Source: an uncultured Sphingomonadales bacterium (GTDB taxonomy: Bacteria > Pseudomonadota > Alphaproteobacteria > Sphingomonadales > Rhodothalassiaceae). From it: 64,000 bases of DNA. Where the stretch lies: assembly GCA_947499155.1 (NCBI GenBank), contig CANMND010000002.1, forward strand, positions 62,001 to 126,000, read 5' to 3'. The translations under genes and the position numbers were made by a program. The notes beneath the pieces are model-generated. The model saw only the letters and a list, made by a program, of their open reading frames with translations. It searched no databases and was not told where the DNA came from. Shown here piece by piece: positions 28,267-32,060 of this stretch. The number at the start of each line of letters is the position of its first letter. Positions within the stretch are counted from its first letter, which is position 1.

Positions 28267-29204
28267 GACCGCACCTGTTTGGCCGCGTCTTTTGCAGCGA
28301 ATTCAAGATAGGCCTGACGCAGGCGTTCTGTTACCGGTCCGGGAAGGGCGGGTGCAGATGCGTCTTCTGTCTCACCAATGACCCGGCCATCCACCTCTCG
28401 CACAGGGATGAGTCCTGCAAATGTGCCGGTGACAAATGCTTCATCTGCGCTATAGACATCGGTTAATGAGAAAGCCTTTTCCTGTACATCCAGTCCAAGG
28501 TTCCGGGCAATTTCCAGCACGACGCCGCGGGTTATGCCCCCCAGACAATATTGTCCGGTCGAGGTCCAAAGCGCACCATTGCGCACGATGAAGAAATGGG
28601 TGGAGTTGCAGGTTGCGACAAAGCCGTGCGGATCGAGCATCAGGGCTTCATCAGCACCGGCCTTGTTTGCTTGTATGCAGGCAGTAATGCAGTTGAGCTT
28701 GGAGTGGCTGTTGAGCTTGTTGTCTTGCACATCGGGATAGCCGCGACGCACATGGACGGTAAAAAGTTTGAGTCCCGTGGTCAGGATATCGGTTTTCGGA
28801 ACCTTGAATTCCGGGATAATCACAACTGTTGCTTTTGAGATTGTGGCGCTGGGAGCCTGATAGGGTGTGGCCTTGATACCCCTTGTCACCATCAGACGAA
28901 TATGAACGCCCGTATCCATGCCATTGGCCTCAAGGGTCTCATATATGCGTTTGGTTAGTTCTCGACGGGTGATGCCGATATCCATATCAATGGCTTTGGC
29001 ACCTTCATAAAGGCGGTTGAGATGGCGATCGAGGAAGGCAATGCCGCCCTTGTGGTGGACGCGCAATCCTTCCCATACGCCGTCACCCAGAATATAGCCG
29101 CTGTCGAAGACACTTACCTTGGCCTCATCGCGCGGATAAAGCGTGCCATTGATGTTGATTTTGATCCCGGAATTTCTTGAATCATCGTGATAATCATGCG
29201 TCAT
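28263..29204 (-). CDS. class IV aminotransferase (BCAT-like/D-amino acid aminotransferase-like)
   Basis: A PLP enzyme of 313 residues with the fold-type IV signature: INGTLYPRDEAKVSVFDSGYILGDGVWEGLR at the N-terminus, the PLP lysine probably in NKLNSHSKLNCIT, and GGITRGVVLEIARNLGLDV. The strong SD AGGAGGAG precedes the ATG at 29204. It is more divergent from typical IlvE than the operon copy at 1204-2139, and its coupling to a sulfotransferase makes a catabolic or specialised role more likely. Substrate specificity is open (branched-chain, aromatic or D-amino acids). Confidence 0.82.
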   Translation of the reverse strand: MTHDYHDDSRNSGIKININGTLYPRDEAKVSVFDSGYILGDGVWEGLRVHHKGGIAFLDRHLNRLYEGAKAIDMDIGITRRELTKRIYETLEANGMDTGVHIRLMVTRGIKATPYQAPSATISKATVVIIPEFKVPKTDILTTGLKLFTVHVRRGYPDVQDNKLNSHSKLNCITACIQANKAGADEALMLDPHGFVATCNSTHFFIVRNGALWTSTGQYCLGGITRGVVLEIARNLGLDVQEKAFSLTDVYSADEAFVTGTFAGLIPVREVDGRVIGETEDASAPALPGPVTERLRQAYLEFAAKDAAKQVRS

Positions 29205-29489
29205 TCATTGCTCCTCCTGATGATAGAGACGGTAGCCTAGTGAAGTGCCTTGGAAAAGCCCTGTTTGACCTGCTGATATCTTATTGATTTAAATGAGCTA
29301 AATTAAAGTTTTTCCTTTTTTGAAATTCATGCTTGTAATGGGGGGCATGATCAGTCATATGGGCTTTAACGTACGCGCACGTGCCACTGGCCCTGATGGA
29401 TTGGTTACGTAACGACGCGTGCTCTTTTTGTTGGTTGGGTCGACGGCCATTTTCAATGAGTCGACACTGATTGATGAAGGGAGACGCCA

Positions 29490-29618
29490 ATGGCCTCCTC
29501 AGACATGCGCAATCCGGGCGGAATATCCAATCGAGGGATTAAAATCCTCGCCAGTGATCGTGGATTCTGGCGCTTTCGCTTTGTGGTTCTCGACAGACAT
29601 AGTCCGAAGTACGCATAA
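29490..29618 (+). CDS. 42-codon upstream ORF of the decarboxylase leader
   Basis: An ORF with a good SD (GAAGGGAG, 29477-29484) and an ATG at 29490 whose product ends in GFWRFRFVVLDRHSPKYA. The C-terminal 25 residues are rich in Arg, Phe and aromatic amino acids and look selected rather than random. The TAA at 29616-29618 lies at the foot of the first hairpin of the structured leader, so translation would act directly on the RNA fold. This arrangement recalls the ornithine-sensing arrest peptide SpeFL of gammaproteobacteria, which also ends in Arg/Phe/His-rich sequence, but I see no direct homology. Translation is inferred. Confidence 0.55.
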   Translation: MASSDMRNPGGISNRGIKILASDRGFWRFRFVVLDRHSPKYA

Positions 29619-29737
29619 GCTCCTTTAAGGAGCATTGCCGTGCCCCCCGTCTCTCAGGCTGACTTTACGCGCAAGGGAGGGCGGCCGGTGAACCTGTTCT
29701 GGTTATGACATTAAGGAATGTCAGGCCGAAGTTCACC
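29619..29737 (+). promoter_or_regulatory. structured cis-regulatory leader RNA of the decarboxylase (speF-motif-like)
   Basis: Several stems fold here. GCTCC/GGAGC closes at 29619-29633. GCC-GCCC-CCC (29637-29648) pairs with GGG-GGGC-GGC (29675-29685) with bulges. GGTGAAC (29687-29693) pairs with GTTCACC (29731-29737), enclosing TGACATT/AATGTCA (29706-29712 with 29717-29723). It sits 14 bases before the decarboxylase ATG. Corbino and colleagues described a speF RNA motif upstream of alphaproteobacterial ornithine decarboxylases. Position, taxon and structure fit it, but I could not align it to the Rfam model. Confidence 0.65.
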
Positions 29738-29751
29738 TAAGGACAAGTGCC

Positions 29752-30993
29752 ATGACTGCAATGTACGCTTACGCACAGCCTGCGCCGGACATCGTATACG
29801 ACACCACGCTCACACATTTTTCTTCTGTAGAAGATGTGGTGGCAACTATTGCTGACGATCTGCCGATTCATGTCATTTACAAACGGACGATCGAGCAGGC
29901 AGCTCATGCCTTTCTCACCAGCTTCCCCGGTGAGGTGATGTATGCGGTGAAGTGCAATCCCACGCCTGCCGTGCTGGATATGCTGGCCCGTGCAGGAATC
30001 TCGGCTTTCGATGTGGCATCAATCGAAGAGATTGACGCCGTGCGCCGTATTGCGCCTTTGGCAAAAATGTATTTCATGCATCCGGTGAAAAGCCGCAAGG
30101 CAATCCGTCATGCCTATATGGCAGGGATCCGGGACTTTTCCCTGGACAGCCAGGACGAGCTTGTGAAAATCATCGAAGAAACCGGGGCGGATGACCTGTC
30201 TTTGGTTATTCGGCTGGGCCTTCCAAAAGGGGATGCAGCGCTTGATCTCTCCGGCAAGTTCGGTGTCATAGGGGATGAGGCGGTCGCGCTCATGCGAGAT
30301 GCGCGCAAGATTGCGTCGTCGCTTGCCATTTCCTTCCATGTCGGTTCGCAGTGCATGAATCCCGACAGCTACGCCCGCGCCATAGCCATGGTGCGAGAGT
30401 TGGTTGATCAGGCAGGCGTTGATATTGATATGTTGGACGTGGGTGGCGGCTTTCCCGTTGCCTACCCCGGCATGACGCCGCCCCCTTTGGCTGACTTCAT
30501 GAAAGCCATAACGGATGCGGTCGAACTCTATGACTTCGGTCACCTTCCACTCGTTTGTGAGCCGGGCCGGGCCTTGGTAGGGGAAGGTGGATCTGTTCTG
30601 GTAAAGGTGGAGCTGCGTAAAGATGACAAACTTTACCTGAATGATGGGACCTTCGGTGCCTTGTTTGATGCAGGTGCCATTGGGTGGCGTTATCCTGTAC
30701 GTGTTGTCGGTGATCGCAAGCAAGAGGATGCAAAGGTACAATCCTTCAGCTTTTACGGCCCCACTTGTGACAGCATGGACTACATGGAAGGACCATTCCT
30801 GTTACCCGATGATATTGAAGAAGGCGACTGGATTGAAGTGAGCCACCTTGGAGCCTATGGCATGGCCATGCGAACAAGGTTCAATGGTTTTTATTCGGAT
30901 CTGACCGTATCTGTCGGGCCGAACGAAGCGACGGGCGCAGTTATTTTACCTATGCCATGCCATCAAGGTGCGGCAATGGCTGGTACAGTTTGA
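29752..30993 (+). CDS. ornithine/lysine decarboxylase, fold III (alanine racemase-type barrel)
   Basis: A 413-residue PLP decarboxylase of the group IV (alanine racemase fold) family. The PLP lysine is in EVMYAVKCNPTP. The glycine-rich phosphate loop is DVGGGFP, and CEPGRALVGEGG and YGPTCDSMDYM (with the intersubunit catalytic cysteine) are standard. The product is putrescine or cadaverine, and ornithine is the likelier substrate given the polyamine neighbour. The ATG at 29752 has AAGGA upstream. It is controlled by the leader RNA and upstream ORF described above. The deoxyhypusine synthase-like gene follows 17 bases after the stop. Confidence 0.9.
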   Translation: MTAMYAYAQPAPDIVYDTTLTHFSSVEDVVATIADDLPIHVIYKRTIEQAAHAFLTSFPGEVMYAVKCNPTPAVLDMLARAGISAFDVASIEEIDAVRRIAPLAKMYFMHPVKSRKAIRHAYMAGIRDFSLDSQDELVKIIEETGADDLSLVIRLGLPKGDAALDLSGKFGVIGDEAVALMRDARKIASSLAISFHVGSQCMNPDSYARAIAMVRELVDQAGVDIDMLDVGGGFPVAYPGMTPPPLADFMKAITDAVELYDFGHLPLVCEPGRALVGEGGSVLVKVELRKDDKLYLNDGTFGALFDAGAIGWRYPVRVVGDRKQEDAKVQSFSFYGPTCDSMDYMEGPFLLPDDIEEGDWIEVSHLGAYGMAMRTRFNGFYSDLTVSVGPNEATGAVILPMPCHQGAAMAGTV

Positions 30994-31010: not shown

Positions 31011-32060
31011 ATGGCAGAAACAAAAGCAAGGCCAAATCGCAAGGCAGAACTGCTGTCACGGCCGGTTGAGCATATAGATATCACCCAGTTTGATGCGCGT
31101 CCGCTTGTGGAAGCCATGGGGAAGATGTCGTTCACCTCTCGTGATACTGCGCGTGCCGCTGAGATATATAACCTTATGCTGGCCGATAAGGACTGCTCGG
31201 TGATCCTGACCCTTGCCGGTTCTACATCGGCGGGTGGTTGTATGCATGTCTATCGCGATCTTGTGAAAGCGGGCATGGTGGATGCGATTGTGTCCACCGG
31301 TGCATCCATTGTCGATATGGATTTCTTTGAAGCCCTTGGATACAAGCACTATCAGGGTGATTCCACCCTTGATGACGGTGAACTGCGCGAGATGTATATC
31401 GACCGCATTTACGACACCTTCATTGATGAAGAAGAGCTTCAGGCTTGTGACATGGCCATCAAGGACATTACCGACAGTCTGGAAGCGCGTCCTTATTCCA
31501 GCCGTGAATTCATCCATGAAATGGGTCGCTGGCTGAAAACAAATGCCAAGAAAAAAGACAGCCTGATTGAGGCCTGTTTTGATCATGGCGTTCCGATCTT
31601 TTGTCCCGCCTTTACCGACAGCTCTGCAGGCTTTGGCCTTGTGAAGCATCAGGTAGAGAGGATGAAGGAAAAGAAGCCTTATCTGACTATTGACGCCATT
31701 GCTGATTTTCGTGAATTGACGGATATCAAGATTGAGGCGGGAACCACTGGCCTTCTTATGGTGGGCGGCGGTGTCCCGAAGAATTTCGCACAGGATACAG
31801 TTGTGTGTGCTGAAATCCTTGGCCACGATGCGGAGATGCACAAATATGCGATCCAGATTACGGTCGCAGATGTGCGTGACGGGGCCTGTTCGTCATCCAC
31901 CCTTAAGGAAGCCTCAAGCTGGGGCAAGGTGGATACGGTCTATGAGCAGATGGTCTATGCAGAAGCGACAACTGTCATGCCGTTGATTGCGTCAGACGCG
32001 TATCATCGCGGCCTTTGGAAAGGGCGGACTCCACGGCAATTCTCAAAGCTGTTCGACTGA
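31011..32060 (+). CDS. deoxyhypusine synthase-like protein
   Basis: A 349-residue member of the deoxyhypusine synthase family. The conserved C-terminal block contains SSWGKVDTVYEQMVYAEATT, where the Lys corresponds to the catalytic lysine of the eukaryotic enzyme, and GTTGLLMVGGGVPKNF provides a nucleotide-binding glycine-rich segment. Bacteria have no eIF5A. Related bacterial proteins have been linked to homospermidine-type polyamine synthesis, so a role downstream of the decarboxylase is likely but inferred. The ATG at 31011 has AAAGGA upstream. A strong terminator follows the stop. Confidence 0.85.
   Translation: MAETKARPNRKAELLSRPVEHIDITQFDARPLVEAMGKMSFTSRDTARAAEIYNLMLADKDCSVILTLAGSTSAGGCMHVYRDLVKAGMVDAIVSTGASIVDMDFFEALGYKHYQGDSTLDDGELREMYIDRIYDTFIDEEELQACDMAIKDITDSLEARPYSSREFIHEMGRWLKTNAKKKDSLIEACFDHGVPIFCPAFTDSSAGFGLVKHQVERMKEKKPYLTIDAIADFRELTDIKIEAGTTGLLMVGGGVPKNFAQDTVVCAEILGHDAEMHKYAIQITVADVRDGACSSSTLKEASSWGKVDTVYEQMVYAEATTVMPLIASDAYHRGLWKGRTPRQFSKLFD

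Follow-up and report, generated by a model that had tools for sequence, protein, structure and literature searches.

The speF motif has, to our knowledge, been an orphan riboswitch candidate without a known ligand since 2005. In its original description, it was left as an orphan after six metabolites had been tried and no binding was seen, and the section on this motif mentions no upstream open reading frame (uORF) (Corbino et al., 2005; PMC1273637); PMC7266159 refers to a later update on this motif (Greenlee et al., 2018). In Escherichia coli and Salmonella, the short uORF SpeFL/orf34 lies 5' of an ornithine decarboxylase gene and is followed by a hairpin just after its stop codon (PMC6386406; PMC8429421). 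SpeFL arrests the ribosome at termination (PMC8429421), and in Salmonella a pause at the orf34 stop prevents the "downstream of stop" hairpin, with orf34 translation also blocking Rho at speF (PMC6386406). A further design is the odc1 (uORF-25-1) motif of Sphingomonas, a decarboxylase leader that combines a pseudoknot with a stem whose right arm includes a ribosome-binding site (RBS); its conserved, UUG-started uORF of 11 amino acids nearly overlaps the UUG main start (PMC8632094).

Here, we describe a decarboxylase leader of an uncultured Sphingomonadales bacterium, found in a stretch of DNA of 64,000 nucleotides (the window); its features are collected in Table 1. The leader noticed in a first-pass annotation is real and more interesting than first described, as a speF-related RNA that is widespread and tied to polyamine genes probably gates its uORF. 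Our main reading, which we hold with a probability of about 0.6, is that a two-layer cis-acting leader, consisting of an RNA-gated uORF and then an arrest peptide, controls a decarboxylase-led polyamine operon.

Table 1. Features of the leader and of the adjoining genes (positions are those of the window).
Feature	Position	Strand	Basis
Leader RNA element related to speF, with 5' block (conserved), P1 stem (short), SD-sequestering hairpin (long) and uORF start codon	29368-29492	+	R1 83.9 bits, E 3e-17; R2 71.1 bits; covariation in 39 distinct leaders
P1 stem	29383-29410 (29383-29384 with 29409-29410; 29388-29392 with 29403-29407)	+	helices 1 and 2: 100% and 83% of cells paired
Long hairpin burying the uORF SD	29417-29487 (23-bp helix, 29422-29444 with 29460-29465/29467-29483, plus GCGU/ACGC base)	+	fold; covariation
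uORF Shine-Dalgarno (SD) AAGGGAG, pairs with CTCTTTT of the hairpin	29477-29483	+	sequence, fold
uORF, 42 aa, MASSDMRNPGGISNRGIKILASDRGFWRFRFVVLDRHSPKYA and stop	29490-29618	+	ORF list; homologues; pN/pS 0.32
Conserved C-terminal motif of the uORF (codons 23-39, DRGFWRFRFVVLDRHSP), presumably the arrest sequence	29556-29606	+	pN/pS 0.18; shuffle tests against the G004, G012 and G015 uORFs
Hairpin GCTCC/GGAGC (GCTCCTTTAAGGAGC) directly 3' of the uORF stop	29619-29633	+	fold; stop-proximal hairpins also in G001, G002, G004, G012
Second leader hairpin	29637-29689	+	fold
Third leader hairpin, GGTGAAC/GTTCACC enclosing TGACATT/AATGTCA	29687-29737	+	folds; in the window, long folds only
Ornithine/lysine decarboxylase-family gene, 413 aa, presumed regulated gene	29752-30993	+	PF02784, E 9e-42; 5gjm, E 4e-43
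Deoxyhypusine synthase-like polyamine gene	31011-32060	+	NF002699, 588.8 bits (cut-off 500); PF01916

The uORF, which starts with ATG and whose product ends in GFWRFRFVVLDRHSPKYA, is a real, protein-coding gene. Over four genomes of family f1 (G000, G001, G002, G005), its in-frame pN/pS amounted to 0.32, while the two remaining frames gave 1.26 and 1.36. A value of 0.32 or less was reached by none of 1000 column shuffles, and the substitutions per codon position (48/41/110) were dominated by the third position. Selection was strongest in the C-terminal half, pN/pS falling from 0.44 over codons 2-22 to 0.18 over codons 23-39. Such constraint on C-terminal amino acids together with synonymous freedom is a trait of arrest leader peptides in general. 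The uORF family was found in five genomes of family f1; homologues of 44-78% identity lie 5' of the orthologous decarboxylases in G001, G002, G005 and G003, i.e., in every other genome of the family with a strong match. The first-pass annotation thus holds for the 42-codon ORF and its good SD, for its prediction of codon-level conservation at the C-terminus and for an in-frame ORF in orthologous leaders.

In close relatives, a near-invariant block begins about 125 nt 5' of the uORF and consists of GCACGTGCC, a variable loop, AACGACG and then CGTCCTTTT or CTCTTTTT. By pattern search, this block was present in 41 of 103 alphaproteobacterial decarboxylase leaders, some loci having been entered twice. 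In the window, it is followed by a long hairpin (fold energy –31.7 kcal/mol, z –3.86), of which the 3' arm of the 23-bp helix holds the uORF SD, and the same arrangement with differing sequences recurred in nearly all of 35 leaders folded singly. A covariance model built from nine leaders (R1) gave 42 matches in 76 sources; the window is included at 83.9 bits, a score that has to be read with its membership in the R1 training set in mind. In a model-guided alignment of 39 distinct leaders, 88.2% of the cells paired versus 33-48% with the partners slid, the helix that covers the SD reached 98.6%, and both-sided changes occurred at 26 of the 29 pairs. This alignment was fitted to the structure and its pairing figures consequently favour it, while the single-sequence folds are independent of the alignment. 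The TTTTT tract of the leader was rejected as an intrinsic terminator (one weak terminator-like match against a shuffle mean of 0.5), as the anti-SD arm explains the U tract better. A scan of the leader for sigma-70-type promoters gave no match.

Previously, the stems 3' of the ORF had been assigned to speF. RF00518 remained without a hit in 29000-30200 and in 29300-29760, which take in the region 29600-29752, whether the threshold was E ≤ 1 or E ≤ 10, and the window leader stays below the gathering cut-off of the Rfam model; a single Rfam match at permissive thresholds was dismissed as chance, and none was obtained in twenty related leaders. The speF-related RNA sits instead 5' of the ORF and carries the RBS of the latter. 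A second model (R2), built from the 42 R1 matches and thus from decarboxylase leaders only, recovered every one of the eight RF00518 loci known to us from the class (L017-L024). Its matches coincide with the positions given by Rfam and score 21.5-27.8 bits, with E-values of 4e-4 to 0.01. One of them, L018, was among the 42 training sequences and was the only RF00518 locus matched by R1 (E 0.58), while the other seven were outside the training set. Because R2 recovers all eight loci at these positions, we consider the window element a divergent speF relative missed by Rfam; judged by these models, it is a homologue of speF RNA below the Rfam threshold. Both lie 5' of a COG0019-type ornithine decarboxylase and share the homologous block GCACGTGCC...AACGACG followed by the long hairpin. 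The window hairpin, however, hides the SD of a conserved uORF, and by-eye inspection of the eight RF00518 loci revealed no obvious one. Part of the enlarged element family may already be in print (Greenlee et al., 2018).

Like odc1, the window leader is an alphaproteobacterial decarboxylase leader with the uORF RBS inside a stem. Its RNA sequence, start codons and uORF are nevertheless all distinct, as tandem UUG starts and an 11-aa uORF are replaced by an ATG-started, 42-codon uORF whose end lies 133 nt from the decarboxylase start. Leaders of the odc1 type occur in family f6, which belongs to the same order as the window genome, and R2 gave no plausible match in three f6 loci. At f6 loci including L150 and L152-L158, an apparent odc1 motif (CTGCCCCATGGGAC..TTGAATTG) replaces the element, representing a second design of SD-in-hairpin plus uORF at the same gene.

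Across Alphaproteobacteria, R2 matched in 72 of 385 genomes. Among 80 matches read in detail, 67 precede a decarboxylase of the same fold family, five a homospermidine synthase gene (hss; L224, L235, L253, L258, L264) and one speD-speE (L248; SpeD 127.7 bits, cut-off 75.65), with five more at contig edges (L221, L260, L271, L275, L286) and two before other genes (L240, L246). The training set of R2 held no hss or speDE leaders; the identity of the homospermidine synthase was established by a dedicated search for L224 and from the sequence for the other four. Many of these loci feature a uORF between element and decarboxylase, mostly beginning exactly where the model ends. All five hss-linked elements (starting near position 1500 in L224 and L235) are followed by a 14-codon, Pro-rich uORF, e.g., MNGHAPAPHPRTNR, and the element before speD-speE by one of eight codons (MSGSSLRG). 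The gene set of odc, hss and speDE suggests polyamine status as the common signal, and a polyamine is more likely to be sensed than ornithine. At L240, the element lies 5' of a class I glutamine amidotransferase-like gene, which is not a known polyamine enzyme.

The first-pass annotation had drawn a parallel with the role of SpeFL and suggested a nascent-chain polyamine sensor. These gene contexts weaken the idea of a SpeFL-like sensor, in which nascent peptide and ribosome would bind ornithine and the arrest would induce the decarboxylase: neither hss nor speD-speE uses ornithine as substrate, although the hss uORFs are different peptides and ornithine stays compatible with the window uORF. 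Gene context, similar length and position of the uORF, an Arg/aromatic-rich C-terminus and the stop-proximal hairpin are indeed shared with SpeFL. Nonetheless, peptide and leader RNA are unrelated to the SpeFL/orf34 system; as already supposed, homology is not apparent, as BLASTP with E. coli SpeFL returned no alignment at E ≤ 100. Furthermore, the conserved C-terminus of SpeFL ends at the stop codon, whereas the window motif is followed by a variable tail. On balance, we regard ornithine sensing of the SpeFL type as rather improbable. The window leader appears to work like SpeFL/orf34 and odc1, while none of our tests indicated homology to either.

The conserved part of the peptide, R-[GST]-x-x-[RK]-[FW]-x6-[RKM]-x-S-P, was found again before the same decarboxylase in two further families. 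Distant members in G004 (MAYVRGVTHPLFWADGTPRRIEPRTHWRWRFIAFDMISPFA), G012 (MTSITLAYHGTLLMCDLTAVFRPRTYIKWWYLVLDMTSPMLCNR) and G015 (MTFRDVRTRGRVSIHQLSRVFRARSYLRFWHTAESMLSPRLVS), each located 5' of the decarboxylase, have the C-terminal part alone in common. Scored with a profile of five family f1 uORFs against 2000 shuffles per sequence, no shuffle reached the value of G004 (f1) or G012 (f7) and two reached that of G015 (f4); after G004 and G012 had joined the profile, G015 scored 26.9 bits with 0 of 2000 shuffles as good. Over the three families, the first Arg stands at a constant distance from Ser-Pro, about 17 residues are kept, and 2-5 variable residues follow Ser-Pro. Other candidates were set aside: the uORF of G009 (f4) has xLSPR in common by eye and alone is not significant against shuffles, profile matches in unrelated genomes (e.g., L048, L054) had no decarboxylase found adjoining and were treated as chance, as were two plasmid tblastn matches at E = 1.

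Conservation of the peptide, together with a position next to an enzyme gene with which it is probably co-transcribed, could also be accounted for by a small trans-acting protein, e.g., an antizyme-like binder of the decarboxylase. Such a role is very unlikely in our view, given that just the said 17 or so residues are kept over families, that other lineages have a different peptide at the same position and that the start site lies inside a regulatory hairpin. Hardly any weight falls to a general translation-stress attenuator placed before a polyamine operon by chance: the R-x-R of the f1 peptides (WRWR/FRFR) resembles motifs at which macrolides and ketolides stall the ribosome (PMC8298421), but it is absent from G012 (KWW) and G015 (RFW), and the gene set of the RNA family is polyamine-specific.

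RNA element and uORF are not strictly coupled. G003 keeps the uORF without a recognisable 5' element, which argues for a role of the peptide of its own. Conversely, the element does not require the uORF, since in other lineages the decarboxylase directly follows the element or unrelated-looking uORFs stand in between. The dissimilar uORFs of other lineages and the case of G003 thus mark RNA and peptide as two separable layers. Alternatively, the RNA could be the sole sensor and the uORF a translated relay, opening the leader or blocking Rho by ribosome traffic, with a peptide sequence of little importance. In line with this, the decarboxylase is the first ORF after the hairpin, without a uORF, in L214, L216, L220 and L225, and the RNA is kept while uORF sequences vary by lineage. 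Strong purifying selection on the C-terminal codons speaks against it, as it is seen not only in the window uORF but independently in the Rhodospirillaceae-type uORFs, which end in ...CRHIAWDGHDLVVLSRFDVIRD and show a pN/pS of 0.18 over 22 codons; so does the constant spacing of the conserved residues to Ser-Pro. We therefore consider an RNA-only sensor unlikely, and prefer the two-layer leader.

In the first layer of this leader, the speF-related RNA keeps the uORF SD in the long hairpin, whose opening would be set by a signal. This signal is most likely the level of polyamines, to which the conserved 5' block could respond by itself or via a protein. In the second layer, the C-terminal motif of the translated uORF would slow or stop the ribosome around Ser-Pro, which lies a few codons short of the stop. 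In its paused state, the ribosome could melt the post-stop hairpin, whereupon the downstream leader refolds or Rho is kept off, and the output of the decarboxylase is set. For this step we propose, by analogy, a coupling of the Salmonella orf34 type, in which regulation depends on the position of the ribosome.

Compared with 200 shuffles, four of which were as good, the 3' leader (–50 kcal/mol) is modestly more stable (z –2.06). Both stems named in the first-pass annotation are present (GGTGAAC 29687-29693 with GTTCACC 29731-29737, TGACATT 29706-29712 with AATGTCA 29717-29723), but the outer one is outside the minimum-energy fold of the 3' leader alone; it forms when the whole leader is folded, and likewise in the folds of two relatives. 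The third hairpin stops 1 nt before the decarboxylase SD (AAGGAC, 29739-29744). Across families, neither a conserved intercistronic fold nor a general masking of the decarboxylase SD by the 3' leader was found. Without such conserved masking, Rho control is an equally good candidate for the last step.

The decarboxylase of the window and that controlled by SpeFL/orf34 belong to different fold families. The former comprises the domains PF02784 and PF00278, and the nearest solved chains are lysine/ornithine decarboxylases (5gjm). The polyamine gene behind it is probably part of the same operon. This gene also scores above the threshold that NCBIfam sets for 1,9-bis(guanidino)-5-aza-nonane synthase.

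In a broader, tentative reading, which is well conceivable although we would not favour it outright, a single RNA family related to speF would control, ahead of odc, hss and speDE, the translation of arrest peptides that differ from lineage to lineage, and the window-type peptide would be a new nascent-chain polyamine sensor unrelated to SpeFL. If such peptides arrest ribosomes, the few arrest peptides that respond to metabolites would be joined by new families. For speF itself, our data suggest that the conserved hairpin is an SD-sequestering switch, and that the family is much larger than Rfam shows, standing before several polyamine genes and often controlling a uORF. Constructs for speF ligand tests could consequently take in the uORF, with homospermidine as a candidate.

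The uORFs of other lineages show further patterns of conservation. In the Rhodospirillaceae-type uORFs of L065, L067, L068, L070, L072 and L076, it reaches the stop codon (..SRFDVIRD), which in L067 and L076 is placed inside a short hairpin. The strings NPLSS, SSIG or SSMRAPD occur a few residues 5' of the stop in the uORFs of L222, L229, L230, L255, L236, L250, L251, L259, L261, L263 and L270. Homology of the window uORF to the Rhodospirillaceae, NPLSS or SSIG types was rejected as not significant against shuffles. The R2 element was not found in the leaders of Henriciella (L057, L060, L061, L063), which feature another conserved-looking uORF (..DADY.AAVAELIRP) about 270 nt before the decarboxylase.
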